Assembly: GCA_020433455.1 (NCBI GenBank)
Contig: JAGRCP010000077.1
Coordinates: 1-64,000, forward strand
Source: Caldilineaceae bacterium
GTDB lineage: Bacteria; Chloroflexota; Anaerolineae; Caldilineales; Caldilineaceae
DNA: 64,000 bases
Reading direction: 5' to 3'
Each line of letters starts with the position of its first letter. Position 1 is the stretch's first letter. The notes beneath the pieces are model-generated. The model saw only the letters and a list, made by a program, of their open reading frames with translations. It did not search any database and was not told where the DNA came from. The translations under genes were made by a program, and so were the position numbers. This document shows, one piece after another, positions 37,000 to 58,325 of this stretch.

Positions 37000-38373
37000 C
37001 TACGGTCGTACGAAACGACCCGTTCCCGGCTCCGCCGTGATCACCCCATCGCGATAGGCAATGATGCCGTTGATAATGGTGGTCTGGACGCGACCCTGCA
37101 CAAACCGTCCGTTGTACAGCCGTTCGACGGCCTTCGCTTTGGAAAACCACTTGCTCGAATCAAACGTCCCGCTGGGCCGCGGGTCATAGACGACCACATC
37201 GGCATCGGCCCCGACCCGGATGACGCCCTTGCGCGGATAGAGGTTAAAAAGCTGCGCGGGCTGCGACGAAAGAAAGCGCACTGCATCCGCCACCGTCAAG
37301 CGGCCGGTCAGGGCTTCAGTCATAACGCCGGGAAGCAGGGCCTCCACGCCGGGAGCGCCAATCGCCCCCTGCCAGATATTGTTCAGCCCCCGCTCCTTTT
37401 CCGCCAGGGTAAAGGGGCTATGATCGGTGGTGATGGCGCTCAACGAGCCGTCGAGCAGTCCGCCCCACAGCGCCGCCTGGTCCGCTTCGCTGCGCAAGGG
37501 CGGCTTGATCATGGCAAAGGGACCGTGCCGGTCCATATCCTCAGCCGTGAAGAAAAGATAATGGGGGCAGGTTTCACCGGTCATGGGCAGGCCCGCCTGC
37601 TGCGCACGCCGCAGCACATCCAGCGCGGCCGCGCTGGAGACATGGGCGATATGCACGTGGGTGTTGACCGCGTCGCAAAGTACGGCCAGCTCCGCCACGG
37701 CCATGGCTTCGACAACCGGCGGTCGGCTCTCCACAAATGCCGCGGGGTCGGTGCGTCCGGTCCGGCGGATACGGTTGCCGAAAAGCTGGATCAACCGCTC
37801 ATTTTCAGCATGGAAAGAGACGAGAAGCCCCGTCTCCTTGACCATTTCCAGCACCTCGTACAGTTCCGACTCATCCTCCAGGCAGAGCCCCTCAAACTCA
37901 TCTTCCCGCCCGGGCTGGATGGCATGGGTAAAAATCTTGAACCCGCAGGCGCCGGCTTCCGCCATCCCGAGGATTTCATCCTGCTGAAGCAGGCCGGGCG
38001 CGCCGTAGAGGCCAAAATTGACCAGGCTTTCCGCTTCTCCCAGTCGCCTCCTGCTTTCAAACACATCCACCGTAGCGCAACAGGGGTTGCTGATGGGCAT
38101 CTCCAGTACGGTCGTAACGCCTCCGGCAGCGGCTGCGCTGCTCTCAGTGACGAACGTTCCGCGTTCCGGATAAGAGGGCGCGCGCACGTGAAAGTGGATG
38201 TCGATGACGCCGGGCATCACCAACATCTCATCCGCTACGATCTCGGTGCGAGCCGGCGGCAATGCGCCGGTTTGTGCGACAATTGCAATCTGGTCGTTCT
38301 CAATCCCGACATCAGCCGGGAAAAGACCGTCCGCCGATGCGACAGTGCCGCCTTTGATGGCAATATCAAGCAT
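37000..38373 (-). CDS. Dihydroorotase/allantoinase family cyclic amidohydrolase
   Basis: Metal-dependent hydrolase of the cyclic amidohydrolase superfamily (dihydroorotase, allantoinase, hydantoinase), 457 residues. H60 and H62 in DIHFHVR, K146 in CGFKIF (the carboxylated lysine), His in THVHIAHVSS and ETCPHYL, and the catalytic Asp in ITTDHSPF are all in place. The start LDIAIKGGTVASADG and the PRKGVIRVGADADVVVYDP segment resemble allantoinase more than dihydropyrimidinase. It opens a ring amide such as allantoin or a hydantoin. It is separated from the long cluster by a terminator (38444-38479) but fits its chemistry. AAGGAAA precedes the ATG. Confidence 0.9.
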   Translation of the reverse strand: MLDIAIKGGTVASADGLFPADVGIENDQIAIVAQTGALPPARTEIVADEMLVMPGVIDIHFHVRAPSYPERGTFVTESSAAAAGGVTTVLEMPISNPCCATVDVFESRRRLGEAESLVNFGLYGAPGLLQQDEILGMAEAGACGFKIFTHAIQPGREDEFEGLCLEDESELYEVLEMVKETGLLVSFHAENERLIQLFGNRIRRTGRTDPAAFVESRPPVVEAMAVAELAVLCDAVNTHVHIAHVSSAAALDVLRRAQQAGLPMTGETCPHYLFFTAEDMDRHGPFAMIKPPLRSEADQAALWGGLLDGSLSAITTDHSPFTLAEKERGLNNIWQGAIGAPGVEALLPGVMTEALTGRLTVADAVRFLSSQPAQLFNLYPRKGVIRVGADADVVVYDPRPSGTFDSSKWFSKAKAVERLYNGRFVQGRVQTTIINGIIAYRDGVITAEPGTGRFVRP

Positions 38374-38495: not shown

Positions 38496-39668
38496 TTACT
38501 GAAACAATGTTTGATCCAGGAATCGCCGTAAGATTGCGCCGGTTGCCGCCAGTTCCTGAACGTCCGTGTATTCGTCGGTAGAGTGGGCAACCTGATAAGA
38601 GCCGGGGCCGAAGACCACCATGCCGCCGGTCACAACGTCAACCAGGTGTTTGGCGTCGCTGCCGGGCAGATAGCCGATGGGCTCAGCAGGCGTAGCGGTT
38701 AATTCGGCGCTAATGGCGAGAAAGCGCTGAGTATATTCATTCTCAGCATCGGTTTCAAACCAATTGCTTACCAAAAAGCTATCGACGGTATACGTGCGCT
38801 CATCATCCTCAGCTTGACGCCCCGCGGCCAGCGCACGCAGTTCGTCCATGACCACACGGGGATCTTCCCCCGGGATCATGCGCCGATCGACCCGGATCGT
38901 GCAGTGATCTGCCACTACGTTGCTGCCCACGCCGCCCTCGATGAGGCCCACGTTGATGCTGGCCGGTCCCAGCAGCGGATGGGGCCGGCTCTCCAGAACG
39001 TCGCGTTGATATCGCTCGATGTCCAGAATGAGGTGCGCCATGCCGTTGATGGCGTTGCGCCCGCGCCAGGGATCCGTGGCGTGGGACGTACGCCCGGCCA
39101 CGTGGAAGGCGGCGCGCAGCACGCCCTTGTGGGCAGTCGCCACGCGATTGTGGGTTTGTTCGCCGACTACGGCGAAGTCCGCCGGGGGCAAGTAGCCGTT
39201 GTCGGCCAGCCACTTGGTGCCCAGTTGACCGCCCACCTCTTCATCCGCCGCACAGACGATCACGAACCGTCCGTGCAGGTCATCCGCCCGCTCCGCCAGG
39301 AAGGAACCGGCGTAGAGCATGGCCGCGAGGGGCGCTTTATCATCCACGCTGCCCAGGCCGTAAATGCGGCCGTTGTCGATCTCGCCGGCAAACGGATCGT
39401 AGGACCAGCGTGCATTGCGGCCCAGCGGCACCGTGTCAATGTGGGCATGGTAGATAATGGTTGGTCCGTCATCGTTGCCGATCTCACCGATGACGCTCCA
39501 GGCCCGTTCGTCGGGCGCGACCAGTTGGGTCGTAAAGCCCGCTTTTTGCAAAAAATGCTCGCAAAACTCAGCTACGGCCCGCGTTTCCCCCGGCGGGTTC
39601 GGCGACGGAATCCGGATGAGGTCTTGCAGCAATCCGGTTAGGGTGTCTAACGACAAAATGAACTCCAC
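38496..39668 (-). CDS. ArgE/DapE-type M20 deacylase
   Basis: M20 family amidohydrolase of 390 residues, of the acetylornithine deacetylase/succinyl-diaminopimelate desuccinylase/N-carbamoyl type. Metal sites are HAHIDTVPLG (His and Asp near residues 75-77), GLGSVDDKAPLA (Asp about 109), and ADEEVGGQLGTK (Glu pair about 143). The start is GTG at 39668, just before EFILSLDTLTGLLQDLIRIPSPNPPGE. In its context it is a candidate for removing an N-acyl or N-carbamoyl group after ring opening by the Hyu proteins (inference). Last gene before the terminator. Confidence 0.88.
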   Translation of the reverse strand: MEFILSLDTLTGLLQDLIRIPSPNPPGETRAVAEFCEHFLQKAGFTTQLVAPDERAWSVIGEIGNDDGPTIIYHAHIDTVPLGRNARWSYDPFAGEIDNGRIYGLGSVDDKAPLAAMLYAGSFLAERADDLHGRFVIVCAADEEVGGQLGTKWLADNGYLPPADFAVVGEQTHNRVATAHKGVLRAAFHVAGRTSHATDPWRGRNAINGMAHLILDIERYQRDVLESRPHPLLGPASINVGLIEGGVGSNVVADHCTIRVDRRMIPGEDPRVVMDELRALAAGRQAEDDERTYTVDSFLVSNWFETDAENEYTQRFLAISAELTATPAEPIGYLPGSDAKHLVDVVTGGMVVFGPGSYQVAHSTDEYTDVQELAATGAILRRFLDQTLFQ

Positions 39669-39696: not shown

Positions 39697-40908
39697 CTAG
39701 CCTTCGCGCTTCAGGCGTCCCAAAACCGCTTCCATCCGCCACAGCGCCTTCTGCAACTCCTCAGCGGGCTGCAGGTAGCTGATGCGTAGCCAATCGCGCC
39801 ATTTTTCGCCGAAAGCCGTCCCGGGGAAGATGAGCACATGCCCTTCCTTAAGCAGACGATAACTAAGCTCAAAGGCGCTCAGCCCGCTGGATGCTGCATT
39901 GGTGTAAACGAAGAAGCCGCCCTGCGGTTCGCTATAGGTCAGACCAATCGCAGTCAGCCCCTCCATGAGCAGTTGGCGTCGCTGGGCATAGATCGCGTAG
40001 AAGGCGTCAACCGCGTCCTGGGGACCGGCAATAGCGGCCAGGGCCGCGTACTGGCCGACGGCAGCCGTGGGACCGGTGGTCGCCGTCTTGAGTGCGGTCA
40101 ATGCAGCAATGAAGTCCGGCGGAGCCGCAACATAGCCCACGCGCCAGCCCGTCATGCAGTAGGCCTTGCTGACGCCGTTCAGGGTGATGGTGCGCTCGAA
40201 CATATCGGGCAGCGCGGCCATACTCAGACGCCGGGCGGGCGGATAGACGAATTTTTCGTAGATTTCATCGCTGATGACGATAAAATCGTGTTGCTTGGCC
40301 AGCTCGGCAATCGCCCGGCGGCTCTCTTCACTCACCACGCCGCCGGTGGGATTGTTGGGCGAAACAATCAACAAGGCCTTTGTCCGGGGCGTAAGCGCGG
40401 CCTCTACCGCGGCGGGCAACAAATCGAAGTCGTCCTCCGGCTCCGTGCCCACCATGACCATCTTGCCGCCGGCCTGCTCAATCGCCTGATCGTAGCTGGT
40501 ATAGCGGGGGTCGGGCACGAGCACCTCATCCCCCGGATTGAGCAACGCCTGCATGATCAGGAAGAGGGCCTCCTGACCGCCGGACGTGACGAGCACGCAA
40601 TCATCATCCGCGGGAATGTTATTATCCCGGCGCAGTTTTTCGGCGATTGCCGCGCGCAGTTCGGGCAATCCGCTGGGCGGCGCAGGCCGATCGGCCAGAC
40701 CGCTGCGTACGGCCTCCTGCGCGGCGGCAATGATGTGCTCGGGCGTGTCCATATCCGGATCGCCTCGCCCCAGGGCGATGACGTCGGGCGTCTCCGCGGC
40801 CAGCTCCATGAGGGCGTAGCGCAAGGCCGTCCCATCGTTGGCAACGCGGCGCAATTCAGTCAGATCTACCGGCTCGCCGGGAATCTCCTGCTGGGTATGA
40901 GCGCTCAT
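39697..40908 (-). CDS. PLP-dependent class I/II aminotransferase
   Basis: Fold-type I aminotransferase of 403 residues that converts an amino acid to its 2-oxo acid. The start at 40908 follows AAGGAG by 7 bases. PLP residues are N185 in SPNNPTGG, D214 and Y217 in SDEIYEKF, the Schiff-base lysine K248 in NGVSKAY and R256 in GWRVGY. It is close to aspartate/aromatic aminotransferases of the AspC-like Ib group. Its ATG overlaps the stop of the upstream pseudo-aminotransferase (ATGA), which has the same fold but lacks those residues, so the pair is made together and may form a heterodimer. Confidence 0.92.
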   Translation of the reverse strand: MSAHTQQEIPGEPVDLTELRRVANDGTALRYALMELAAETPDVIALGRGDPDMDTPEHIIAAAQEAVRSGLADRPAPPSGLPELRAAIAEKLRRDNNIPADDDCVLVTSGGQEALFLIMQALLNPGDEVLVPDPRYTSYDQAIEQAGGKMVMVGTEPEDDFDLLPAAVEAALTPRTKALLIVSPNNPTGGVVSEESRRAIAELAKQHDFIVISDEIYEKFVYPPARRLSMAALPDMFERTITLNGVSKAYCMTGWRVGYVAAPPDFIAALTALKTATTGPTAAVGQYAALAAIAGPQDAVDAFYAIYAQRRQLLMEGLTAIGLTYSEPQGGFFVYTNAASSGLSAFELSYRLLKEGHVLIFPGTAFGEKWRDWLRISYLQPAEELQKALWRMEAVLGRLKREG

Positions 40909-41642
40909 GCGGTTACTCCTTCCAACACCGCCAGGGCGGCATATTGTCCCGGCGCGGGCGTACAAATAGTCATGGCCTGCTTGAGGGCGCCTACTTCGGC
41001 CGTCAAGCGCTTGCCGCCGGCAAACCAGGCGACGTTCCAGGCAGCGAGGCCGGATTCTGTACCAAACGCCCCCAGGATCAACAGACGCCCGGCGTCATGC
41101 AGGGAAGCCAAACCGCGCAGGCTTGACGGAGCGGGCGCAGAGGCGTCCAGCACATCGGCCAGAACCACCGCATCGGGGGCAATCTCTTCAGGCAGGGGAC
41201 CGACAGCAGGATGCCAAATCCAGATGCCCGCTTCGCCCGCGAACGGCGTGGCGGGATCCCACTCGATCAACGTCGCGCCCGCGACCTGGGCGGGCAGGCG
41301 ATAGGCGTCAACCAGCGCGGCAGGGAGACAAACCGTTTTGCCCGTCGCCAGCGCACGCAAGACGAGATAGCGGGTTTCATAGGGACCGCCGCTGATGACG
41401 ACTTCCTCATCGGAATCGACGGCAACGCCCGCCGCGTCCAGTGCCGCGGCGACGGCTCGACAGAGCGGCGCAATGCCGGGGCGTCGCGTGTAATGATCGC
41501 AGCGATGCTCGGCCATGGCCTCCGCCACTGCGTCGCGTACGTCCGCGGACGTAGCGACGGTTGAAGATGCAGTGAACGGGTCAAATGTAAGGTTGCGGAC
41601 TCGCTCCGCTACGGCCCGCCCCGCGGGCGATACGTTACTCAT
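40905..41642 (-). CDS. Aminotransferase-like pseudoenzyme
   Basis: Protein of 245 residues that aligns by eye with the large domain of the following aminotransferase: HYTRRPGIAPLCRAVAAALDAAG with LRAAIAEKL; EEVVISGGPYETRYLVLRAL with DCVLVTSGGQEALFLIMQAL; and the end AWNVAWFAGG...LKQAMTICTPAPGQYAALAVLEG with GWRVGYVAAP...LKTATTGPTAAVGQYAALAAIAG. Where the partner has K248 it has T195; R256 is N203; N185 in SPNNPTGG is replaced by A146-V147; Tyr of the SDEIY segment is lost. The C-terminal small domain is missing. The frame is continuous, so this is a maintained catalytically dead relative, coupled by ATGA to the active one. A regulatory or structural partner role is inferred. Confidence 0.75.
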   Translation of the reverse strand: MSNVSPAGRAVAERVRNLTFDPFTASSTVATSADVRDAVAEAMAEHRCDHYTRRPGIAPLCRAVAAALDAAGVAVDSDEEVVISGGPYETRYLVLRALATGKTVCLPAALVDAYRLPAQVAGATLIEWDPATPFAGEAGIWIWHPAVGPLPEEIAPDAVVLADVLDASAPAPSSLRGLASLHDAGRLLILGAFGTESGLAAWNVAWFAGGKRLTAEVGALKQAMTICTPAPGQYAALAVLEGVTA

Positions 41643-41754: not shown

Positions 41755-42849
41755 TTATCCGTCAAACGGCCACGCCACATCCCGCGCTTGAGCCAGATCA
41801 CGCAACTCGAAAAAGATTTCGGGATCCAGCGGCACGCCGGACGCCCGTTTCTCCTGCATGCGCCGCCATTCCAACTCGCCAGGCAGGAGAATCTCCGCCA
41901 CATCCGGCCGGGTGGCGCTCTGCTTGATCATGGTGATGAACTCCTGCAGGCGCGCATAAAATTCAGCCCGGGGCATAAACCAGTCAATAGCGTAGGCGAT
42001 GAACTGATGGCTCACGTCCTGATGCGCGGGATTCGCATAGGGGAGCGTACCAAAGCCGCCGCCGCCCAGCACGCCCGTAATGACGTCGGTAATGAGGCTC
42101 AGCCCATAGCCCTTGTACTCGCCCATGGGCAGGAGCGTGCCGTCCATGGCCGCGGCCGGATCGTCGGTAAAGCGGCCGTCCCGGGTGATGGCCCACGAGA
42201 GCGGCATCTTTTGGCCGTCACGCATGAGCCAGCGCATCATGCCCTTCCCCGCCATGGTGATGGCCATGTCCAGAATAATGGGCATATCGTCCGGACCGTC
42301 GCCCGTGGGAATGGCCACCGCCCAGGGATTGGTGCCCAGCACGGGGTCAATCCCGCCCCAGGGCGCCATTTCCGGTCCGGCGTTGGTCATGCTGACGCCG
42401 ATGCAGCCGGCGGCAAGCGCCTGGCTCGCCGAGTAGGAGGCCGATCCGAAGTGGGTGCTGTGACGCATCAGGGTTGCGCCGATGCCGCAAACGCCGGCTT
42501 TTTCCACGGCCCGGCGCATGGCCTTGACGGCCACCACGGTGCCGGGACCGTTATGCGCGTCGGCGAAGGTTAAAGCAGGCGACTCCTTGATCACCTCAAA
42601 GGGTGCGGTCGGGTCCAACAATTGCTGATCGATGCGCTCCAGATAAGCCTTGACCCGGCGCACGCCCTGGCCCTGGCCCTGCAAATTGCGCAATTCGCTG
42701 GTAACGAGCGCATCGGCAATAATATCCGCGTCTTCTGCGGTCAGACCGCTGGTGCGCAGGAGTTCACGCGTCAAGTCGTGGAGCGGCTCAATCGCCACAT
42801 ACTGGAGCGGGATCTGCTGGGTTGTGTAATCTCCTGTATATCTGGTCAT
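41755..42849 (-). CDS. Ldh2/ureidoglycolate-type NAD(P)-dependent dehydrogenase
   Basis: Dehydrogenase of the malate/L-lactate (Ldh2, PF02615) family, 364 residues, oxidising a 2-hydroxy acid or reducing a 2-oxo acid. VAIEPLHDLTRELLRTSGLTAEDADIIADALV is the typical N-terminal helix region, LMRHSTHFGSASYSA holds the catalytic His, and SMTNAGPEMAPWGGIDPVLGTNPWAVAIPTG is the coenzyme loop. Members include AllD (ureidoglycolate dehydrogenase), malate and delta1-piperideine-2-carboxylate reductases. The ATG at 42849 overlaps the stop of the upstream D-2-hydroxyacid dehydrogenase (ATGA), so two dehydrogenases of opposite type are coupled. Confidence 0.9.
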   Translation of the reverse strand: MTRYTGDYTTQQIPLQYVAIEPLHDLTRELLRTSGLTAEDADIIADALVTSELRNLQGQGQGVRRVKAYLERIDQQLLDPTAPFEVIKESPALTFADAHNGPGTVVAVKAMRRAVEKAGVCGIGATLMRHSTHFGSASYSASQALAAGCIGVSMTNAGPEMAPWGGIDPVLGTNPWAVAIPTGDGPDDMPIILDMAITMAGKGMMRWLMRDGQKMPLSWAITRDGRFTDDPAAAMDGTLLPMGEYKGYGLSLITDVITGVLGGGGFGTLPYANPAHQDVSHQFIAYAIDWFMPRAEFYARLQEFITMIKQSATRPDVAEILLPGELEWRRMQEKRASGVPLDPEIFFELRDLAQARDVAWPFDG

Positions 42850-43865
42850 GCCGGCACGCTCACGTCGATTTGGGGCGCTTCACCGTTGAGGACGCGCTGC
42901 ACTTCCGTCAGCGCCTTCCGCAGCTCATCCGCCCACGTTGTGCCCGATCCGCCGCCGATATGGGGCGTGAGGATCACGTTATTCAAGTCGCAAATTGGAC
43001 TGTCCGCGGGCAGGGGCTCATAGGCAAAAACATCCAGCCCCGCGCCGCGCAGTTGCCCGCTCGCCAGCGCTGCGATGAGCGCCTCTTCATCCACGATGCC
43101 GCCGCGCGCAATGTTCACCAGGCAGGCGCCCGGTTTCATTTTCGCCAGCGCGGCCGCGTCGATAAGCTTATCCGATTCGGGCGTATGGGGCAGCGCGATG
43201 CAGACGTAATCGCTTTCCGCCAGCAGCGCATCCAACTCGCGATAGTGGGCCGAGAAGCGCCGCTCCAGCTCGGGCGAGAAGGGCGTACGCTTATGGTAGA
43301 GAATGCGCATGCCCATGACCTCGGCGCGGCGAGCCAGTTCACAGCCGATCTCGCCCATGCCGATGATGCCCAATGTGGCGTCCGTCACTTCACGCACATT
43401 GACGTTGCGCATCCAGTGAAAGGCGAATTTGCGCTCCGCCGTCAACTCGGGCGTCATCCCCCGATAGCGATAGGCGCCGTCGATCACGCCGGCATGGGAG
43501 ACGGCCAAATCCTTGCTCAGCGCCAGGACCAGCGTCATGGCCAGTTCCGCCACGCAATTGGGGCCCTTGCGCGGCACGCAGGCAAGCGTCAGCCCCCGGG
43601 CGCGCACGGCCTCCACATCCACATTTTGATAGTTGCGCCCATTCTTGACCACCGCGCGTAAGCCCGGCAGCGCATCAAGCAGACGGCTATCAACCTTTCC
43701 CGCCAATACCAACAGTCCCTGCACATCATCAACTGTTGACACTCCTGCAATCGCATCTTCCGTGGCGCAAATTAATTCCAAATCGGGGAAATCGGAAGCA
43801 ACCGTCGCCACATGATCCGCGTATTTCGGTTCAGTAATCAGCACTTTCGCGCGTAAGTTTGTCAT
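42846..43865 (-). CDS. D-isomer-specific 2-hydroxyacid dehydrogenase
   Basis: NAD-dependent dehydrogenase of the D-2-hydroxyacid (phosphoglycerate dehydrogenase-like) family, 339 residues. The Rossmann loop is GIIGMGEIGCELARRAEVMGM near residues 168-188. The catalytic Arg is in NIARGGIVDEEALI, the Glu in DVFAYEPLP and the His in LTPHIGGG. A GTG precedes the ATG by one codon; the ATG at 43865 is taken. It probably interconverts a 2-oxo and a D-2-hydroxy acid made by the cluster's aminotransferases. It follows the VOC gene after 101 bases that contain a repeat hairpin. Confidence 0.9.
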   Translation of the reverse strand: MTNLRAKVLITEPKYADHVATVASDFPDLELICATEDAIAGVSTVDDVQGLLVLAGKVDSRLLDALPGLRAVVKNGRNYQNVDVEAVRARGLTLACVPRKGPNCVAELAMTLVLALSKDLAVSHAGVIDGAYRYRGMTPELTAERKFAFHWMRNVNVREVTDATLGIIGMGEIGCELARRAEVMGMRILYHKRTPFSPELERRFSAHYRELDALLAESDYVCIALPHTPESDKLIDAAALAKMKPGACLVNIARGGIVDEEALIAALASGQLRGAGLDVFAYEPLPADSPICDLNNVILTPHIGGGSGTTWADELRKALTEVQRVLNGEAPQIDVSVPA

Positions 43866-43893
43866 CACGATACTCGTTTCCAGTACAGTTCGG

Positions 43894-43967
43894 CGTGAAT
43901 GCCACGGCGAAAATCAGAGCCTTCTACCTCTGGTAGGGACCATCAGCTTATTTCCGCCGGGATTCAC
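43894..43967 (-). repeat. Intercistronic hairpin repeat, copy 2
   Basis: Arms CGTGAATGCCACGGCG (43894-43909) and CCGCCGGGATTCAC (43954-43967) form a stem like copy 1 at 21937-21996, with matched changes in both arms. An internal stem CTACC/GGTAG (43924-43936) sits in the loop. The right arm runs into the TAG stop of the VOC gene. It lies within the cluster, between two cotranscribed genes. Confidence 0.6.
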
Positions 43968-44425
43968 TAGACGCCTTGGGGCCGGTCGCCGCCTTCGCCC
44001 TCTTTATAAACCTGCATAAATTCGATCTCGATGCCGCTGACTTCGTCCTGCAGAAATGCGACCCACCCTTCGGGGTGAACATGACTGCCCGTCACCTTAC
44101 AGGCAGAGCATTCTTTGAGGGTTGCGCCATTGGCCTGGGCCTCGGCCAATGCGGCGTCAATGTCCTCTACGGCAAAGCAGATATGATGCAGGCCCTCATG
44201 CCCGCGCTGATCGATCCAGGCGGCAAATCGACCGTCGGGATCCATAGATTCAGTAATCTGAAATTCAATTCCGCCCAGATCAAAGACCGCGGCCTTGTTG
44301 CGGCTTTTGGCGAATTCCTGAATCTTCGTCGCCTGGGGTACGCCCAGCAGGCGCTTATATGCTTTCAACGACTTTTCCGCATCGCGTACGGCGAAGGTCA
44401 TATGCTTAATTTGGGTAACGTCCAT
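43967..44425 (-). CDS. VOC family protein (glyoxalase/epimerase-like)
   Basis: Vicinal-oxygen-chelate protein of 152 residues, similar in layout to methylmalonyl-CoA epimerase. Likely metal ligands are His in IKHMTFAV (residue 8), His in HHICFAVEDID (about 83) and Glu in SGIEIEFMQV near the C-terminus; the expected Gln/Glu in IEFQITE is also present. It acts on a small oxygenated metabolite. In the cluster it may epimerise or isomerise a 2-oxo acid or its CoA ester; not determined. Follows the SDR gene by 56 bases. Confidence 0.88.
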   Translation of the reverse strand: MDVTQIKHMTFAVRDAEKSLKAYKRLLGVPQATKIQEFAKSRNKAAVFDLGGIEFQITESMDPDGRFAAWIDQRGHEGLHHICFAVEDIDAALAEAQANGATLKECSACKVTGSHVHPEGWVAFLQDEVSGIEIEFMQVYKEGEGGDRPQGV

Positions 44426-44481: not shown

Positions 44482-45309
44482 CTATTCCTGGCGGCGCCTC
44501 TGGCGCGCGACAAAGTCGTCCACATAGAGCGTGGCTTTTTCCGGCGCAAAGGCAAAATCATAGCCTTCGGCGGCAATCGTATCGGCCAGCGGACCGGCAT
44601 CGAAACGCAGGCCGGTGAAGCGCGCCGGCGGTTGGGCGGCCAGCCAGACAAACGCCTTGCCCAGCTCAGCCGGGTCCGCGTAGCGCGCCTGTTCCGCCTG
44701 GGAGAATTGGGCGAATTCGGTGCGCGAGACGGATGTGGGCTTGATGATCTTGCCCGGGCCCATGGTGTTGACGGCAATATGACGCGGTTCCGCTTCCATG
44801 GCCAGCGCCTTGGTAAACCCTTCCAGGCCGTGCTTGGCCGTACAGTAGGCAACCTCGTTATAGGAACCGCGCACGCTGGCTCCGCTGGCAATGGCAATGC
44901 AATGTCCGCCCTGCACTGTGAGCCACGGCCAGGCTGCTTTCACTGTGTTGTATACGCCGGTCAGGTTGATGCCCAAAATTTTGTGCCACAGTTTCGGCGT
45001 CGTCTCCTCGAATGAGATCAAGGGCAAAATTGCGGCATTGCTCACGACAATATCCAACCGTCCCCAGCGTGCAACAATCTGCTGCACGACGTTTTCCATG
45101 GCGGCAAAATCGCTGACGTCGCCAGGGCAGCGGATGGCCTGACCGCCCGAAGCGGCAATTTCGGCAACGGCCTGATCCAGTTCCGGCGAGTCCAGATCAT
45201 TGACGCCGACGCTTGCGCCGGCCGCGACAAGGGCCTGGGCAATTCCCGTGCCAAAGCCGCGGCCGGCGCCGGTTACCAATGCGATCTTCCCGTCCAGCAG
45301 GCGACTCAT
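44482..45309 (-). CDS. SDR family oxidoreductase
   Basis: Classical short-chain dehydrogenase of 275 residues. TGAGRGFGTGIAQALVAAGA near residues 13-32 binds NAD(P), and VNDLDSPELD after it suggests NAD preference. NAAI (about 91), the Ser in AIASGAS and YCTAKHG (catalytic Tyr and Lys, about 161-165) are in place. The ATG at 45309 overlaps the stop of the upstream DUF4438 gene (ATGA); an earlier in-frame start at 45498 lies inside that gene and is rejected. Works on an unknown hydroxy or oxo compound in the cluster. Confidence 0.9.
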   Translation of the reverse strand: MSRLLDGKIALVTGAGRGFGTGIAQALVAAGASVGVNDLDSPELDQAVAEIAASGGQAIRCPGDVSDFAAMENVVQQIVARWGRLDIVVSNAAILPLISFEETTPKLWHKILGINLTGVYNTVKAAWPWLTVQGGHCIAIASGASVRGSYNEVAYCTAKHGLEGFTKALAMEAEPRHIAVNTMGPGKIIKPTSVSRTEFAQFSQAEQARYADPAELGKAFVWLAAQPPARFTGLRFDAGPLADTIAAEGYDFAFAPEKATLYVDDFVARQRRRQE

Positions 45310-46187
45310 GCGGCCGCCGCTTCCATGAGGGTCGCTAAATTGGCGCCGTCGCTCTTCACCGGCTCGATGCTGTGATTGCGGCTGGTCATTATAACGGCAA
45401 TGCCCGGCCCGTACCCGCTGCGGAAGCTGCCGCCCTGGCACACCACGCCGATGACCACGGAGCCGCGCCGATAGCCGTGACCGTAGCGGCTGTCCCAATC
45501 GGTGACCGCGACGATATCGCCGAAGCGCAGATCGTCCAATCCTGCTTGGGCAAAGGCTGCGGGGTCCGAAGTCTGAAGATTCAGTGCGCCGTTCTCGCTG
45601 CCCAGGCCGGCGCCGGCGCCGGCCAGCACGCTGGGGGCGACGCCCTTCACGGGGACAACCAGCTTCCCGTCGCCGTTCACGTCCGGGCTGAGGGCCTCCA
45701 GCAATTCGGGCGAGCAGCTTTTTAACTCTATATCCGGGAAATCGGTGAGCTTCATGCCCACGCCGTAGGCTTGAACCTGGACTTTGTCGCCGGGCGCCAT
45801 GCGCTCCATATCGGCGGCGTCAAAATGACAGATAACGTGCTCGGCAAAGCGGCCGCTCTTGCCGGTAACCATACCGGCCGCGCCCTGGGCGGCCCCGCTC
45901 ATGACGCGCGCCCGATTGCCCAGGCAGGCGTAAACGCCCAATGCAGTGTTGACGTTGCCGCTGCCGTGCTTGATGGAAACGCCCGGCTGGATGAGTTCAC
46001 CCGCCCAGCCCAGCGCGCGATCGCCGATTCGGACGTTGTAGACCAACCCCCCGAACGCGGGCACCAGCAGGGGATTGCCTTCGGCGGATACAAAATACGG
46101 ACTTGCCGGCAAACCCGGCATGGCGGGATTGGAAATCTCGCCCAGTACGGAAATTTTTACCAATGAGGATAGGTTTGTGTTAAGCAT
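45306..46187 (-). CDS. DUF4438 family protein A
   Basis: Protein of 293 residues matching the DUF4438 family by pattern (TM1086-like): start MLNTNLSSLVKISVLGEI, GGLVYNVRIGDRALGWAGELIQPGVSIKH, ACLGNRARVMSGAAQGAAGMVTGKSGRFAEHV, and PGDKVQVQAYGVGMKL. The function is unknown. No catalytic residue pattern can be named; many Gly-rich loops and few Cys suggest a beta-rich fold. It is a paralogue of the next upstream product and is coupled by ATGA to the SDR. Confidence 0.85.
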   Translation of the reverse strand: MLNTNLSSLVKISVLGEISNPAMPGLPASPYFVSAEGNPLLVPAFGGLVYNVRIGDRALGWAGELIQPGVSIKHGSGNVNTALGVYACLGNRARVMSGAAQGAAGMVTGKSGRFAEHVICHFDAADMERMAPGDKVQVQAYGVGMKLTDFPDIELKSCSPELLEALSPDVNGDGKLVVPVKGVAPSVLAGAGAGLGSENGALNLQTSDPAAFAQAGLDDLRFGDIVAVTDWDSRYGHGYRRGSVVIGVVCQGGSFRSGYGPGIAVIMTSRNHSIEPVKSDGANLATLMEAAAA

Positions 46188-46311: not shown

Positions 46312-47163
46312 CTATATCTCCAATATTTCCTTAATATTTGCGCCGGCTTCCAGCACCGGCTCGATCTCGCCATGGGCGCAAACGAGGATATCCTGACAGC
46401 CGGGGCCATGACCGTTCCAGGCTGAATCTCCATGCATGATCAGGCCGATGGTCACGCCGCCGGGCTTATAGCCCCGGCCATAACGATGGTCCGTGTCCAT
46501 CACCGCGACCAGGTCCCCCAGCTTCAGATTGTCGATCCCCAACTCGGCCAGCGCGGCCCGGTCGCCGGTCATCAGGTCCTGATCCACAAACTCGGGCGTC
46601 AGCTCCGCGCCGCTGCCCATGATGTGAGCCGGAATGGTTGCGACGACGGGAACCTGCAATTTGCCGTTATCGCCCTTGCGTAAATTCCAGCGCTTGATCA
46701 GATTGGGGCCCGCCTTTTTGACCAACACGCCCGGAAAATCCAGCAGCTCCATGCCCCGACCGCAAGTCTTGATGAGGATGCGGTCTCCGATACAAAGTTG
46801 CTCCAAAATGTCTGGAGCAAAGTCAATCAGCAGGCGTGCATGTTCGCCGGTGATAATGCCCCTGGCGCCCAGAGCCGGCCCGCTCATGACGACGGCTTCA
46901 TTGCCCACGCAGGTGAGGTAGTGCATGGCATGATCCACGTCGCTGTCGGGGTGGGCAAGGCTCACGCCCGGCTCGACGTGATCTCCCTCCCAGCCATAAG
47001 CGGGATCGCCTACACGGGCGTTATACACGATGCCGGACATGCCGATATGCACAGCCGCATGCCCCTCCGTGTCGGGGCGATAGGGCTGGCGGTCCAGCGT
47101 AGGCGGGCTGATAAAACCGGTAACAGCCAGCTCGACTAAGTCATTGATATTCGTACGGATCAT
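46312..47163 (-). CDS. DUF4438 family protein B
   Basis: Protein of 283 residues, paralogue of DUF4438 A with the same order of motifs: MIRTNINDLVELAVTGFI, GIVYNARVGDPAYGWEGDHVEPGVSLAH, CVGNEAVVMSGPALGARGIITGEHARLLIDF, IGDRILIKTCGRGMELLDFPGV, and DTDHRYGRGYKPGGVTIGLIMHG. The last motif recurs as DSRYGHGYRRGSVVIGVVCQG in A. GGAG lies 6 bases before the ATG. No function is known; the tandem copies may form a heteromer. A 124-base gap separates it from A. Confidence 0.85.
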   Translation of the reverse strand: MIRTNINDLVELAVTGFISPPTLDRQPYRPDTEGHAAVHIGMSGIVYNARVGDPAYGWEGDHVEPGVSLAHPDSDVDHAMHYLTCVGNEAVVMSGPALGARGIITGEHARLLIDFAPDILEQLCIGDRILIKTCGRGMELLDFPGVLVKKAGPNLIKRWNLRKGDNGKLQVPVVATIPAHIMGSGAELTPEFVDQDLMTGDRAALAELGIDNLKLGDLVAVMDTDHRYGRGYKPGGVTIGLIMHGDSAWNGHGPGCQDILVCAHGEIEPVLEAGANIKEILEI

Positions 47164-47187: not shown

Positions 47188-48360
47188 TCAGAGTTTTGTA
47201 TCCAACAGAAACGCTTCGCGCAACTTTTCAACCACATAATCGACCTGCTCCTCCGTCATCCCGGGATAAATGGGCAAGGCCAGGAGAGAATCCGCCAGCG
47301 CTTCGACGACGGGAAAGCTTCCTTCGCCCAGGCCCAGATGTCGGTAGACAGGTTGGAGATGAATCGGCGGCGCATACATAACCGATGTCGTCACGCCGTT
47401 TTGCGCCAGATAATGACGAATTGCATCGCGTTTCGCCGGCGGAACCAGGATAACGTAGTTGCGCCAGGCATGACGGTCTTCCCCAATCGGGGCAGGCAGC
47501 GTTACGCCCGGAACGTCGATCAACCCTGCAGCGTAGCGCTCAGCCACGGCCTGGCGCAGTTCGCCCCAGGCATGCAGATAAGGAAATTTGGTCAGAACAA
47601 CAGCCGCCTGAATGCCATCCAGCTTGAAGTTATACCCTTCGGCAATGCCCGCCATGCCGTTCTGCTGATGACGTTCGTGGATAGGCTTCTCCATGATTGA
47701 CGGGTCCTGACCATAACCTCGCAGCAACCGCACCCGATGCGCAACATCAGGATCCCGGGTCAACACCAGCCCCCCGTTGGAAAATCCACCCAACACTTTG
47801 CGCGGCGCAAAAGAGAAGAAAGCTGCATCACCCCACAATCCCGCCTTAACGCCCCGATGTTCCGCGCCCAGGGCCAGGGTCGCATCTTCGATAACGAGCA
47901 AGCCGCGCGCATGCGCCAGTTCGCGGATCCGCGTCATATCAGCAGGGCGACCAAACATGTGTACGGGCACAACCGCGCGGGTAGAAGGCGTGATGGCGGC
48001 CTCAATCAGGGCCGGATCGAGATTGTGGGTCGCCGCCTCCACATCCGCCAGCCGAAAAGTCGCCCCCGTATGGCTGATGGACGAAGTTGTGGGCAGGTCG
48101 CTATTGGGCACGGTGATAACCTCATCGCCCGGCCCGATGCCCAACGCTTTCAGAGCCAGAAACTGGGCGGACGTTCCGGACTGGACCGTAATCGCACAGC
48201 CTTCCGGCACGCCGAAATACGCGGCCAGCATCGGTTCCAATTCCCGCGCGTACGTCAAATCATCAGCATACGGATCGGCCAGAATGCGCTGAAAAATCGC
48301 GTTCAGCTCATCCTGCACAAGGCGATGCTGCCACCTCAAATCGACCAGCGGAATCTGCAT
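47188..48360 (-). CDS. DegT/DnrJ/EryC1/StrS family aminotransferase
   Basis: PLP-dependent sugar-aminotransferase-type protein of 390 residues. The ATG at 48360 is chosen because GGAGG lies 5 bases upstream. IPLVDLRWQHRLVQDELNAIF is the typical start, VQSGTSAQFLALKALGIGPGDEVI the phosphate loop, VIEDATLALGAE the Asp of the cofactor site, and FFSFAPRKVLGGFSNGG contains the internal aldimine lysine. Members act on keto-sugars or as amino donors in secondary metabolism; its presence in a degradative cluster is uncommon. It starts 14 bases after the M24 stop. Confidence 0.9.
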   Translation of the reverse strand: MQIPLVDLRWQHRLVQDELNAIFQRILADPYADDLTYARELEPMLAAYFGVPEGCAITVQSGTSAQFLALKALGIGPGDEVITVPNSDLPTTSSISHTGATFRLADVEAATHNLDPALIEAAITPSTRAVVPVHMFGRPADMTRIRELAHARGLLVIEDATLALGAEHRGVKAGLWGDAAFFSFAPRKVLGGFSNGGLVLTRDPDVAHRVRLLRGYGQDPSIMEKPIHERHQQNGMAGIAEGYNFKLDGIQAAVVLTKFPYLHAWGELRQAVAERYAAGLIDVPGVTLPAPIGEDRHAWRNYVILVPPAKRDAIRHYLAQNGVTTSVMYAPPIHLQPVYRHLGLGEGSFPVVEALADSLLALPIYPGMTEEQVDYVVEKLREAFLLDTKL

Positions 48361-48374
48361 GAGAACCTCCGTCA

Positions 48375-49532
48375 TCACATGACGCGCCAGCGATGGCTCC
48401 AGCCGTTGCCAAAGCGCTCCAGCCCCTGCTCGGTGATCAACACATCTTCATTGATACCGGTTGACCAGCCCGGAGCCGGCTCAACGATACGGCGCGGATG
48501 ATAGGAAAAGACCATACCCGCCTCCAACACCCAATCCTGCGACTGTCCCCAAGGCGATTCTGCCGCGTGCCACGGACGTTCGATGGTGTCCATGCCCTGT
48601 CCATGGAAGTCAAAGTGAGTCGTCGGTGAACCGATATCCCAACCATCAGCACGCAGCGTCTCCTCAAAAAGTGAAGCCAGTTCACTGAGGCGAGCGCCGG
48701 GTTTTGCCATTGGCGTTATGGCATCCAGCGCGCGCAATTCGCTCTCTACCAGCTTATATTCCATATCCGTCGGCTCACGGAATGCACAATTGACAGTAAT
48801 CTCCGACCAGTGACCACTCTCGCCGCAGATTTCCATATGATAGCGTAAGATATCGTCACACCGCACCGGAACGTCGCGGGGCGGATCGAGTTCATCCGGT
48901 CGTTCGCCGATAAAGACCAGCATATCCCGCGCACCGCCGGCCAAAGCTACGGCCGATGCCTCGGCAGCCAGCTCACGCTGGCTCTTGCCCGGTTCTATCG
49001 CCTCCACGAAGCGCTCCATTGCCGCTTTGGTCAACACCCAATGTTCACGAATCTGTCGCACCTCCAGCGCACTCTTAACGGAACGCACGCGATCCATCAG
49101 ATCGTCGGCATCTACAAAATCGACTTCCGGCAGCCCATCGGCCAAAATATCGTAATTGCCCGCCGACAGGATGTAACGCCGTCCGGCAATTCCTATACGC
49201 CCGCGGGTTACCCCCTTTTGCCGCATCATCTCTACCAAGCGCGGAGCCTGATAAACATCACCCCGAACATCCGTCACCCATCCCCGAGCCGCGATTCGCT
49301 CGGCGACAGCATAGCTGGAAAAGACCATAAACGGCTCATCGTTCAGCGGAATGCAAAGCAGCCCATCATGGCCCCAGATGTGAAAATCTGTGAAGTAGCG
49401 TATATAGCCCCGCCCTGTCCACCAATGACCTTTGCCCACAACGATTAGCGCATCTAATCCGGCGGCTTCCATGGCCGAACGCGTTCGGGCTAAGCGACGG
49501 TCACGTTCGGCGAGGTCTGCATATTCACCCAT
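48375..49532 (-). CDS. M24 (pita-bread fold) protein lacking most metal ligands
   Basis: Protein of 385 residues with the creatinase-type N-terminal domain (residues 1-160) and the M24 pita-bread domain. Set against Xaa-Pro aminopeptidases, the five metal ligands are only partly kept: the first Asp is M233, the second is E244 (SEIT in place of SDMT), the His is H310 (DFHGQG), the Glu after it is H345 (FSYHP in place of the TIEPG segment), and a late Glu in NEDVLIT remains. Creatinase also has Glu at the second position and no metal. It may therefore be an amidinohydrolase or lyase rather than a peptidase. Start ATG at 49532; 21 bases from HyuB. Confidence 0.8.
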   Translation of the reverse strand: MGEYADLAERDRRLARTRSAMEAAGLDALIVVGKGHWWTGRGYIRYFTDFHIWGHDGLLCIPLNDEPFMVFSSYAVAERIAARGWVTDVRGDVYQAPRLVEMMRQKGVTRGRIGIAGRRYILSAGNYDILADGLPEVDFVDADDLMDRVRSVKSALEVRQIREHWVLTKAAMERFVEAIEPGKSQRELAAEASAVALAGGARDMLVFIGERPDELDPPRDVPVRCDDILRYHMEICGESGHWSEITVNCAFREPTDMEYKLVESELRALDAITPMAKPGARLSELASLFEETLRADGWDIGSPTTHFDFHGQGMDTIERPWHAAESPWGQSQDWVLEAGMVFSYHPRRIVEPAPGWSTGINEDVLITEQGLERFGNGWSHRWRVM

Positions 49533-49553: not shown

Positions 49554-51278
49554 TCAATCTGCAAATCTGTTCTCTACACACGCTCGAATCGCCTCCAGCT
49601 GTAACTCCTCGGGATCAAATCGAACGTCCAGACCATATATATCGCGGGCGGCTTCCAGGCTGACCAGGCCACTGGTAACATCCGCCTGTACATCGGCGCG
49701 TTCTCGCTCCAGGGGATCGCCGTAGCCTCCGCCGCCGGGCACGCGCAGCACAACCTCTTCGCCCGGCTGCCACTGAATGGGGACAAAACGTTCCAGCCGG
49801 ACGCCCTCGAAAAATACGTCCCCTAATGCTCCAGCGTCTCCGCCATGGAGGCCAGGAGCAGGATATTTCATTAGATCCGGCCGAATCGTCAACATGATCG
49901 GCTCCCGGCCGATATGACGCAGCGCAATTTCCTGACCCGGTCCGCCCCTGCGCTTTCCCGCTCCCCCCGAATCCGTCAGCATGGCCTTACGCGTCATAAC
50001 AATGGGGCACTGTTTTTCAATAATCTCCGTCGGCGTAACGGTGCTGTTGTGGGGATAAGCAGCGGGAAGAAGACCATCCGCATCCTGCGTCGCGCCCAGC
50101 CCGCCATGGGGCAGCATATGGACGGCGAATCGTCCATAACGGGCGTCCTGGCCCACGATATGGAAGGGGAAAATGCCGCCGGCCGCGGCAATTACCTCAT
50201 CCGGCAGGAGGTCCGCCAAGGCGCCGAAGATGAGCGGCGGAATATGCTTGATCACCTTGGCCCGGGCCTTCACCGGGGCCGGAAAGGTGCAGTTGACGAT
50301 GGAGCCTTCCGGAGCCGTAATATGCAACGGTCGTACCAGCCCATCGTTATTAGGGATATGCGCAGCCAGCATGCACTTAATCGGGTAGACGGCGGTTGAA
50401 TAGGAAATATTAAACGCCGCATTAATAGCCGAATGCCACTGTTGGGGCGAACTGCCGGCAAAGTCCATGTACAGATCGGAACCGCGGATTTCTAGACGAA
50501 TGCGTAAGGTAAAAGGCTCCAGATAGCCGTCAGCCGTTATTTCATACTCGCTGACGCCGTCAGGCAGCGCGGCGATGGCCTCGCGCAGAGCGCGCTCCGA
50601 TCGCCCCTGGATCGCATGGGAAAGCGACTCGATATCATCCAGGCGATAATCGTCCAGAAACTCCTGGATCCGCTTGATGCCGATACGGTGAGTGCCGACG
50701 ATAGCATGAAGATCGCCTAATACCATTTCCGGTACGCGGCAGTTGGCGGCAATAAATTCTTCGACAATCGGGACGACCTGACCTCGGGCATAAAACTTAT
50801 TGGGCATGAGGCGCGTGCCCTCCATAAACATATCCGACGCCTCTAAATCCCCCAAGTGCCCTCCTACATCCGAAACGTGGGCGACAGTTCCCAAAAATGC
50901 AACGAGTTTTCCCTTATGAAAAACGGGGGAGACCAGGTTATAGTCGGGGAGATGGGTGCTGCCAATCCACGGATCATTGGTTGCCAGAACGTCCCCTTCT
51001 TCCAGCGCGGCAGCCGGAAACTTCTTGAGCATATCGCGCGTGGTGCGCGGCAGCATGGTGCAGAACTGGGGCGGACTCCACTGGGCTTGCGTAAGGCCTG
51101 CGCCTGAGGCGTCCATGATGGCGCACCCGAAATCATGACTCTCTCCCACAATCGTAGAAAAGGAAGTTCGGATAACAGCCGTATCGATCTCGTCGGCAAT
51201 GGCCACTAAACGCTGCCACTGAATTTCCAGGCTAATGGGATCAATGTCCGTCACGTCGCCTGCAATATTGCTCGTCAT
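49554..51278 (-). CDS. Hydantoinase/oxoprolinase subunit B (HyuB), copy 1
   Basis: HyuB-type subunit (PF02538) of an ATP-dependent cyclic amidohydrolase such as N-methylhydantoinase, 5-oxoprolinase or related carboxylases; 574 residues. PISLEIQWQRLVAIADEIDTAVIRTSFSTIVGESHDFGCAI is the family start. ATNDPWIGSTHLPDY and HVSDVGGHLGDLEASD are conserved, and FAHNST-type segments with GRGAGKRRGGPGQEIALR-like glycine loops occur near the C-terminus (SGGAGKRRGGPGQE). It is the most diverged of the three HyuB copies in the window. It forms one line with HyuB copy 2 (26-base gap). Confidence 0.92.
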   Translation of the reverse strand: MTSNIAGDVTDIDPISLEIQWQRLVAIADEIDTAVIRTSFSTIVGESHDFGCAIMDASGAGLTQAQWSPPQFCTMLPRTTRDMLKKFPAAALEEGDVLATNDPWIGSTHLPDYNLVSPVFHKGKLVAFLGTVAHVSDVGGHLGDLEASDMFMEGTRLMPNKFYARGQVVPIVEEFIAANCRVPEMVLGDLHAIVGTHRIGIKRIQEFLDDYRLDDIESLSHAIQGRSERALREAIAALPDGVSEYEITADGYLEPFTLRIRLEIRGSDLYMDFAGSSPQQWHSAINAAFNISYSTAVYPIKCMLAAHIPNNDGLVRPLHITAPEGSIVNCTFPAPVKARAKVIKHIPPLIFGALADLLPDEVIAAAGGIFPFHIVGQDARYGRFAVHMLPHGGLGATQDADGLLPAAYPHNSTVTPTEIIEKQCPIVMTRKAMLTDSGGAGKRRGGPGQEIALRHIGREPIMLTIRPDLMKYPAPGLHGGDAGALGDVFFEGVRLERFVPIQWQPGEEVVLRVPGGGGYGDPLERERADVQADVTSGLVSLEAARDIYGLDVRFDPEELQLEAIRACVENRFAD

Positions 51279-51304
51279 ATCAAGAAGTTCTCCGCTGCGA
51301 AATC

Positions 51305-52963
51305 CTATGGCAATTCGTCGCTCTCAACTACGAAACCGTACTCGCTCGCCGCGTGGGCAAGCGTAATGTAGCCCATCTCTATGTCCCGCCGCACACTCTC
51401 AAGCGGGCGTTCGCTTACCGGACCAAAACCTGCGCCTCCGGGCATACGCATCTCAATCTCGTCTCCGGGCTTAAATTCCAATGACGGAAAGCGGGTAATG
51501 AGTTCGCCGTTGAAGCGTACTTCCCCCACTTTGCCCGGCTGTCCGCCGTCGATGCCCGGCGGCTCACAAAACATTTTGTCAGGCCGAACGCGTGCAGCAA
51601 TTGACTCATCTCCGATATTACGGAAAGTGATGACCTGACCAATTCCCCCGCGACTTCGTCCTGCACCGGCTGTATCAGGCAAAAACTCCTTGTGCAGCAT
51701 CAGAATGGGCGCTTCCGTCTCCATAATTTCGGTTGAGGTGACGGAACTGTTGTGAGGAAAAGCGATGGGAGGCAGCCCGTCCATATTGCGCATCGCTCCT
51801 CGACCGCCGTGGGGCAGGATATGAACTGAAAATGCGCCATAGCCCTCCAGTTCGCCACTCACGCTAAAGGGCCAAATCGAGCCGCTTCCGGCCTGGGCGT
51901 GTTCTCCTAATATAGGCCAGACGGCGCCGAAGAGCGCCTGGTTGATATTATTGGTCGTCTTTGCCCGTGCTTGCACAGGATAAGGATCGGTGCAATTGAG
52001 GATGCAGCCCTCGGGAGCCGTCACATGGACCGGGCGAAAGAGGCCCTCGTTGTTAGGGATGCCCGGCACAAGCGCGCACTTGAAAGGATAGAGGGTGGAC
52101 GCATAGGTTGTGTTGTAGACGCAATTGATTGCGCCCAATCGCGTCTGGGGCGAGGTGCCGCTGTAATCCACATAAATATCCGAGCCGCGCACTTCGATCT
52201 TTGCGTGAAGATGAACAATTTCGATGTAGCCGTCTATATCCAGGCCGAATTCATAAACCCCGTCGGGCAGCGCCTCAATCCGTTCACGCATCAACCGCTC
52301 TGAGCGGGTATGAATTTCGTACGAGAGTTCGGCAATGTCGTCCATGTTGTAGTCGGTGAGAAACTCCTGAAGCCGCCGAACGCCGATTTGGTGCGTGCCG
52401 ACAATGGCGCGCAGGTCGCCTAATACCATATCAGGTACGCGACAATTGTTGCCGATAATTTCGAAGAGCAGTTCATTTTCCCGGCCGGCGCGATAGAGTT
52501 TGGCCGGCGGCACGCGTATGCCCTCCGTGAAGACGTCATATGCCTCAATGTCGCCCCGATGACCGCCCACATCAGCCAAATGCGCTACCGTACCGATAAA
52601 AGCAATGGGGGCGCCGCCGACGAAAACCGGCGTCAATACAACGTAGTCGGGAAGGTGCCCTGTACCGATCCACGGATCATTCGTGCAAAGCACATCGCCT
52701 TCCTGCAGCGTGTGTAAGGGGAACTTGGCAAGCAGCGCCTTAGCCGTACGCGGCAATACCACACAGAAATTAGGCGGACTAAAGCTCGATTGACACAGGG
52801 ACGAACCATCCTGATCAACGAGTATGCAGGCAAAGTCACGGCTTTCCCCGACGATAGTCGAGAACGAGGTGCGCACGGTAGCGTTATCCACCTCATCCAT
52901 GATGCTGATGAGGCGTTGCCACTGAATTTCCAGGGCAACAGGATCAGCGACATATTGATTCAT
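51305..52963 (-). CDS. Hydantoinase/oxoprolinase subunit B (HyuB), copy 2
   Basis: HyuB-type subunit of 552 residues. The ATG at 52963 lies 7 bases after the regulator stop and starts the family segment DPVALEIQWQRLISIMDEVDNATVRTSF. It is highly similar along its length to copy 3 at 59853 (for example IVGESRDFACILVDQDGSSLCQSSFSPP against the same segment with few changes; EFGLDIDGYIEIVHLHA in both). Other family motifs are CTNDPWIGTGHLPDY and HLADVGGHRGDIEAYDVF. GAGRSRGGIGQ near the C-terminus is a conserved loop. First structural gene after the GntR gene. Confidence 0.92.
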   Translation of the reverse strand: MNQYVADPVALEIQWQRLISIMDEVDNATVRTSFSTIVGESRDFACILVDQDGSSLCQSSFSPPNFCVVLPRTAKALLAKFPLHTLQEGDVLCTNDPWIGTGHLPDYVVLTPVFVGGAPIAFIGTVAHLADVGGHRGDIEAYDVFTEGIRVPPAKLYRAGRENELLFEIIGNNCRVPDMVLGDLRAIVGTHQIGVRRLQEFLTDYNMDDIAELSYEIHTRSERLMRERIEALPDGVYEFGLDIDGYIEIVHLHAKIEVRGSDIYVDYSGTSPQTRLGAINCVYNTTYASTLYPFKCALVPGIPNNEGLFRPVHVTAPEGCILNCTDPYPVQARAKTTNNINQALFGAVWPILGEHAQAGSGSIWPFSVSGELEGYGAFSVHILPHGGRGAMRNMDGLPPIAFPHNSSVTSTEIMETEAPILMLHKEFLPDTAGAGRSRGGIGQVITFRNIGDESIAARVRPDKMFCEPPGIDGGQPGKVGEVRFNGELITRFPSLEFKPGDEIEMRMPGGAGFGPVSERPLESVRRDIEMGYITLAHAASEYGFVVESDELP

Positions 52964-52970
52964 AACTGAT

Positions 52971-53657
52971 TTACGCTTCTTCTGATGCATCATCCGGCGG
53001 GAGGTTGACCAAAATATGTGAAAGTGATTCCATGATGTGTTCGTTAAGGGCGATACGCGCCAACTCCAGATTGCGCTCCGCCAGCGCCGTAACCAGCGTC
53101 GGGTGACTGCCGACTACCTCATCCAGGAACGTGTAAATCTTGTGCCGCGTGTGCAAACAGCGACGCACGCCGACTTCCACGACCCGCCACAGCTTTAAAG
53201 CCAAGTGATGATCGGCTATCTGCAGAAGATATTCGTGAAAATGCAGATCCAGATCAAGCATCCGGGTTTTATCGTCCCGGCGCGCCGCGCGCCGCATCTC
53301 TTCGATAATTTCATTAAAGTAGGCTAGGTGTTCATCAGTAATCCGTTCAATCGCGCGCTCGACGGCCAACTCCTCCAACGCTATGCGTACGGAATAGAGT
53401 TCTTCCACATAGCGCCGCGTCATGCGCGTGATGACGACTACCTTGTAAGGCGTGCTCTCAATAAGTCCTTCCTGCTCGAGTTGAGCCATGGCCTCGCGTA
53501 CGGGACCGCGACTAATGCCGAGGCGTTCGGCAATCTGCGCCTGATTAAACTCAGTGCCGGGCGCCAACGATCCGTCAATAATCGACTGGCGCAGGATTTC
53601 TAAGACGTTGGCCTTTATGGTCCGCGGCTCAATGGGGGTAAGATTTTGTAATTCCAT
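52971..53657 (-). CDS. GntR family regulator, FCD subfamily
   Basis: Transcription regulator of 228 residues. Winged helix-turn-helix near residues 15-80 (IKANVLEILRQSIIDGSLAPG, QIAERLGISRGPVREAMAQLEQEGLI). The FCD ligand domain follows with the metal-binding pattern Asp/His in DLDLHFHEYLLQ, His in GSHPTLVTAL and His in LNEHIMESL. FCD regulators sense organic acids or amino acids. It lies between the two hyuA genes upstream and the hyuB genes downstream in the same direction, so it probably controls this cluster in response to its substrate. Confidence 0.92.
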   Translation of the reverse strand: MELQNLTPIEPRTIKANVLEILRQSIIDGSLAPGTEFNQAQIAERLGISRGPVREAMAQLEQEGLIESTPYKVVVITRMTRRYVEELYSVRIALEELAVERAIERITDEHLAYFNEIIEEMRRAARRDDKTRMLDLDLHFHEYLLQIADHHLALKLWRVVEVGVRRCLHTRHKIYTFLDEVVGSHPTLVTALAERNLELARIALNEHIMESLSHILVNLPPDDASEEA

Positions 53658-56044: not shown

Positions 56045-56049
56045 GGGAT

Positions 56050-58212: not shown

Positions 58213-58325
58213 GAGATATTGTCTGTGTACTATGCGGCAATTCAACCGCGGCGGAAGATGGCTAGGACGGGCAGACGGACGAGAGCAACTTTAGGCGCAA
58301 TGTAAAAAACCGCCCAAAACACCTA

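Follow-up and report, generated by a model that had tools for sequence, protein, structure and literature searches.

Introduction

The active sites of fold-type-I aminotransferases are each built from residues of both subunits, and the division of such a symmetric site between two genes is known among PLP enzymes mainly from serine palmitoyltransferase. The P-protein of glycine decarboxylase (GcvPA/GcvPB, alpha2beta2, in many bacteria) is likewise composed of two homologous fold-type-I halves, only one of which binds PLP. In serine palmitoyltransferase LCB1/LCB2 (SPTLC1/SPTLC2), one subunit lacks the Schiff-base lysine and other catalytic residues, further residues predicted to be catalytic are kept, and each heterodimer has one active site at the interface (PMC3794620). 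The residues exchanged between subunits have been described for human kynurenine aminotransferase I (KAT I), in which Tyr63, Phe278 and His279 reach the active site of the other subunit (PMC4926479, PMC12808825), and the PLP phosphate is bound by Tyr70 of AspAT and the equivalent Tyr149 of AroH (PMC6715241, PMC6279937).

Here we analysed a gene pair from a Caldilineaceae bacterium, located in a stretch of 64,000 nucleotides referred to as the window. A preliminary description had interpreted one of the two genes as an aminotransferase paralogue without catalytic function, kept as a subunit or regulator of the active enzyme encoded next to it. We name the lysine-less kind PSE (pseudo-aminotransferase) and the lysine-bearing aminotransferase kind CAT.

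Results

The gene pair and its products

39697 to 40908, minus strand: CAT, full-length PLP aminotransferase-family protein of 403 aa, proposed catalytic subunit (Pfam, NCBIfam and PDB matches)
40905 to 41642, minus strand: PSE, aminotransferase paralogue of 245 aa lacking the lysine and the small domain, proposed non-catalytic subunit (Pfam, AlphaFold2)
40905 to 40908, minus strand: ATGA stop/start overlap of the PSE end with the CAT start, kept in genomes G020 (L003) and G321 (L021)
41058 to 41060, minus strand: PSE Thr195 in place of the Schiff-base lysine (sequence alignment)
41034 to 41036, minus strand: PSE Asn203 in place of the GWRVG arginine that binds the phosphate (sequence alignment)
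41490 to 41492, minus strand: PSE Tyr51 codon, equivalent to KAT I Tyr63 and AspAT Tyr70, proposed to act in trans (HMM alignment)
40962 to 40979, minus strand: PSE loop Q222-AMT-I226-C227, with I226 at KAT I Phe278 and C227 at His279, proposed to act in trans (HMM alignment)
40165 to 40167, minus strand: CAT Lys248, the Schiff-base lysine (sequence alignment)
40684 to 40686, minus strand: CAT Pro75 at the position of Tyr70/Tyr63, trans residue lost (alignment)
40069 to 40074, minus strand: CAT Gly279-Pro280 at the positions of Phe278/His279, trans residues lost (alignment)

The PSE reading frame is intact, and Shine-Dalgarno-like GGAG/AAGGAG sequences precede the starts of both genes. PSE is homologous to the neighbouring CAT (BLASTP, 27% identity, 36 bits, E=4e-7) and passes the cut-off of 19.7 bits of Pfam Aminotran_1_2 (PF00155) with 32.1 bits; CAT reaches 253.9 bits. 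A single-chain AlphaFold2 model of PSE, built on an alignment of six rows, has a pLDDT of 74.8 and a pTM of 0.75 and resembles class I aminotransferases in their large domain (about 212 residues, Z about 20); the loop around Tyr51 (residues 49-53) has a pLDDT below 50. The protein stops just after QYAALA, so that the C-terminal small domain is absent, the segment SPNNPTGG is replaced by HPAVGP with a deletion, and Thr195 stands in for the Schiff-base lysine of functional class I aminotransferases. The preliminary description had thus read the likeness to the large domain, the threonine, the asparagine, the Ala-Val exchange, the missing domain and the ATGA junction correctly. Asp163 of PSE, the aspartate facing the pyridine nitrogen (codon 41154-41156, minus strand), is kept in 26 of 27 PSEs, and the T-x-G phosphate loop in nearly all; since both are retained, the residual pocket may still hold a ligand.

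In CAT the set of cis residues is complete (Lys248, Asn186, Asp214, Tyr217, Arg256 and the small-domain Arg). The trans residues that are typical of unpaired relatives and expected of a homodimer are missing, their places being taken by Pro75, Gly279 and Pro280. When membership in the alpha-oxoamine synthases was considered, the best NCBIfam and PDB matches, among the matches listed, were class I aminotransferases, to which the pair belongs as judged from its sequences. The highest-scoring NCBIfam model for CAT was the PLP-dependent cyclodehydratase GntC (NF041364), although the 317.6 bits obtained do not reach its curated cut-off of 415; PSE scored 41.2 bits, also below this cut-off. We know of no pseudo-subunit described for GntC.

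Distribution of the pairs

A CAT profile search followed by extraction of all aminotransferase ORFs yielded 27 tandem PSE-CAT pairs in 19 Chloroflexota genomes, mostly draft assemblies, of six families, four in the class of the window (f1, f15, f20, f32) and two elsewhere in the phylum (f83, f99); the sequences from f20 are related, so that these counts do not equal independent events. Classes were assigned from profile score and lysine and not from the trans residues. The counts refer to corrected sets, in which the lysine-bearing protein of G172 is counted as PSE and the L086 CAT as paired, its PSE being de-duplicated under L052. A scan of genome contigs with the single sequence gave no match, and a two-sequence profile recovered two loci. 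Profile retrieval could favour PSEs with conserved motifs, yet many PSEs came to light solely through their position next to a CAT match. In a phylum-wide search of 400 genomes with the PSE profile, apart from the PSE of the window itself, only the best matches of G452 and G713 clearly exceeded ordinary aminotransferases, and the system is therefore sparse outside the class of the window.

Related pairs are present in G020 (46% identity) and G321. Two pairs occur in several genomes: type A lies near DUF4438/Ldh_2 genes, type B near Ldh_2/AspA-like genes. The type B pairs lie in a separate neighbourhood of the same genomes (L086:1748-4016 in G172, L089:3110-5430 in G321, L127:7566-9920 in G020), and the trans loop of their CAT is rich in glycine (SGG). 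The length of PSE varies: short forms of about 240-300 aa occur in the clade of the window and in an f20 clade, and full-length forms retain the small domain with its Arg. This distribution makes two independent truncations likely, the branching order of short and full-length PSEs having moderate support only. In G452, PSE is full-length with His in place of the lysine. The gene at the PSE position of G172 (L052:7614-8900) encodes a full-length protein of the PSE clade with Lys and Arg still present, and its CAT partner has Met for the trans Tyr; it is a possible intermediate in which heterodimerisation would have preceded the loss of the lysine.

Complementary loss of cis and trans residues

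In an HMM alignment with KAT I, Tyr63, Phe278 and His279 correspond to Tyr51, Ile226 and Cys227 of PSE and to positions 75, 279 and 280 of CAT. The Schiff-base Lys is present in every CAT (27/27) and every unpaired aminotransferase (69/69), and in a single PSE of 27, that of the G172 type A pair. Asn186 and Tyr217, universal in CAT like Lys248, are lost in nearly all and in 27/27 PSEs, respectively. The trans residues behave inversely. PSE has the Tyr and the Ile in 27/27 and the Cys in 26/27 sequences; the Tyr is found in 69/69 unpaired aminotransferases and in only five of 27 CATs, all of a single genus. Since the pairs are not phylogenetically independent, the Fisher p of 6e-15 is only indicative. 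Position 75 of CAT is occupied by P (7), Y (5), A (4), V (4), L (2) and one each of I, M, F, H and D, the second trans position by G in 24/26, and the third by G (11), P (7) and A (5), with C in 1/26.

Near-invariance in PSE combined with loss in CAT was confined to five of 234 large-domain columns (75, 79, 275, 279 and 280). These include all three KAT I trans positions, an overlap with a chance of about 5e-6 under random placement, and the other two columns (79 and 275) lie in the same two loops. The Tyr75 column has zero entropy in unpaired aminotransferases and 2.93 bits in CAT, the highest value among the columns conserved in unpaired enzymes. This is the decisive feature that the preliminary description had missed: CAT itself has lost the residues exchanged between subunits, and PSE keeps them. 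Relatives of PSE in other genera and families share the losses of its own site, so that the observation on PSE is more than chance.

Evolution and selection

PSE and CAT each formed a monophyletic group (support 99.7/100 and 85.5/97, respectively), and the distances between pairs were mirrored in the two proteins (r=0.949; best of 5000 permutations 0.379), a correlation that partly reflects species history. Given the separate monophyly and the mirrored distances, the sequences are most simply explained by a single origin of the pair among those sampled and its inheritance as a unit. Within the PSE clade, G452 with its His branches first, followed by the lysine-bearing type A protein of G172 (92.8/98), so that at least two losses of the lysine are probable; Tyr51 was retained throughout. 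Between close relatives, omega was 0.17-0.32 for PSEs without the lysine (dS<1.1) and dN/dS 0.05-0.13 for CAT; both genes are under purifying selection, which is weaker on PSE. The clade of the window is near saturation (dS 1.6-2.0), and pN/pS was 0.58 in the most divergent PSE comparisons.

Gene neighbourhood

41755 to 42849, minus strand: Ldh_2 family oxidoreductase, conserved neighbour upstream of PSE
42846 to 43868, minus strand: D-2-hydroxyacid dehydrogenase, conserved neighbour
43967 to 44425, minus strand: glyoxalase-fold protein, conserved neighbour
44482 to 45306, minus strand: short-chain dehydrogenase (SDR), conserved neighbour
45306 to 46187, minus strand: DUF4438 protein, second copy, conserved neighbour
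46312 to 47163, minus strand: DUF4438 protein, first copy, conserved neighbour
38496 to 39668, minus strand: M20 ArgE/DapE-type hydrolase, conserved neighbour downstream of CAT
37000 to 38373, minus strand: allantoinase/hydantoinase-like cyclic amidase, conserved neighbour

The order DUF4438-DUF4438-(SDR)-glyoxalase-Ldh_2-PSE-CAT-M20-cyclic amidase recurs, with rearrangements, in all six families, in each of which tandem DUF4438 proteins accompany the pair. They likely catalyse steps of the same pathway; a search of open-licence papers found no mention of DUF4438. Beside the cluster, the window contains three hydantoinase-B ORFs (49554-51278, 51305-52993 and 59853-61532), a hydantoinase-A ORF (53912-56044) and a GntR/FCD regulator (52971-53657), so that 49554-61532 represents a multi-copy hydantoinase/oxoprolinase locus. 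A DegT-like ORF (47188-48378) considered as another lysine-less protein was rejected as a misalignment, its Lys being present in FAPRK.

Because these neighbours comprise hydantoinases A/B, a cyclic amidase, an M20 hydrolase, Ldh_2 and hydroxyacid dehydrogenases, they suggest a pathway in which an amino acid would be released from a cyclic amide and converted to a 2-oxo acid and a 2-hydroxy acid.

Discussion

We consider it very probable that the two proteins are obligate partners in a heterodimer that has one composite active site; the complex, its stoichiometry and the single site are what we infer from the conserved pairing and the complementary losses. CAT would bind PLP through Lys248 and contribute all cis residues including the small domain, while two loops of PSE would cross the dimer interface, that of Tyr51 (HYTRRPG) contacting the PLP phosphate and QAMTIC lining the substrate pocket. 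The mirror image of this site, in PSE, would be dead, leaving its lysine and other cofactor residues free to go, and the PSE small domain, which would close over this site, would be dispensable and was lost in the lineage of the window. The trans loops of CAT would serve the dead site only, so that their residues could decay. Once one site is dead, the cis residues of PSE and the trans residues of CAT are thus both free to decay, which matches the observed pattern. The enzyme probably transaminates, or converts by other PLP chemistry, the amino acid delivered by the cyclic-amidase and M20 steps, and the 2-oxo acid would be handed to the hydroxyacid and Ldh_2 dehydrogenases. Non-transamination chemistry is possible because the best NCBIfam model for CAT, though under its cut-off, is a cyclodehydratase. 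Tyr70 of AspAT is important but not strictly essential, and since five CATs keep the Tyr, a CAT homodimer of reduced activity is also possible.

Retention of PSE as such, as proposed in the preliminary description, is supported by its recurrence and by purifying selection, and the complementary losses specify the role further as that of a heterodimer subunit. PSE might instead be a conserved paralogue with a regulatory or chaperone-like function: it would bind CAT or a ligand, and CAT would work as a homodimer whose site PSE does not complete. Asp163 and the phosphate loop could form a sensing pocket, the small domain with its Arg persists in full-length PSEs, and the Tyr-bearing CATs would fit such a role; we nevertheless regard it as unlikely, as it would not lead one to expect that precisely the published trans residues are kept by PSE and lost by CAT. 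The same pocket, together with Lys and Arg in the G172 type A paralogue, could also indicate that catalysis in the full-length forms involves both subunits, with PSE performing PLP chemistry without a lysine or binding another phosphorylated ligand. The loss of the Lys in 26/27 PSEs, of Tyr217 in all and of Asn186 in nearly all, and the lack of the small domain in the short forms, make this highly improbable.

It is hardly credible that a decaying duplicate, or an artefact of assembly or frameshift, accounts for PSE. Its truncation, the missing active-site residues and the elevated pN/pS of the most divergent comparisons point in this direction, but the open frame with its ribosome-binding site and ATGA coupling, the purifying selection, the invariant motifs and the recurrence in 19 genomes argue against it. 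The separate clades and the dN/dS values rule out a recent duplicate or decay, and conservation together with the distinct clades rules out a gene fragment or frameshift. Of the three objections that the preliminary description had named (a lack of homologues outside this genome, elevated non-synonymous substitution in relatives, and a recent duplicate in decay), none was borne out.

More tentatively, the heterodimer can be regarded as a split aminotransferase, whose dead subunit has shrunk in two or more clades to one domain of about 240 residues that would act as a trans-loop donor and complete the site of its partner, and the residual pocket, with Asp and phosphate loop but no Lys, may be allosteric or ligand-sensing. 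We hold this for possible rather than probable; if true, the single-domain trans-loop donor would be a previously undescribed architecture of PLP enzymes. The pair would place a two-gene division of the active site in the large family of class I aminotransferases with all stages visible, from the lysine-bearing paralogue of G172 over full-length lysine-less PSEs to one-domain PSEs. The complementary loss provides a residue-level test of the trans-acting parts of fold type I and of the route from homodimer to obligate heterodimer. For annotation, CAT homologues called aminotransferases would probably show little activity when expressed without their partner, and PSE genes would end up labelled as fragments.

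The preliminary description knew of no system with such a pairing. This holds for aminotransferases, as no description of a pair of this kind was found in the open-licence literature, but not in general, because the same logic is described for LCB1/LCB2 (PMC3794620). The homodimeric class I aminotransferases, such as human KAT I, Thermus AspAT and prephenate aminotransferase, share the fold of the pair and have two shared sites that use residues of the neighbouring subunit (in KAT I, Tyr63, Phe278 and His279); however, one gene provides two identical sites in these enzymes, whereas in PSE-CAT one gene carries the cis part and the other the trans part. GcvPA/GcvPB is an analogy that differs in family and reaction and shows no one-domain truncation. 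Serine palmitoyltransferase resembles the present system as a pair of homologous fold-type-I PLP proteins, one with and one without the lysine, the heterodimer being inferred here. It is, however, a membrane-bound eukaryotic alpha-oxoamine synthase with a full-length dead subunit, whereas PSE-CAT is a bacterial, operon-coupled pair of the class I aminotransferase family, in two clades of which the dead subunit has about 240-300 aa and no small domain.
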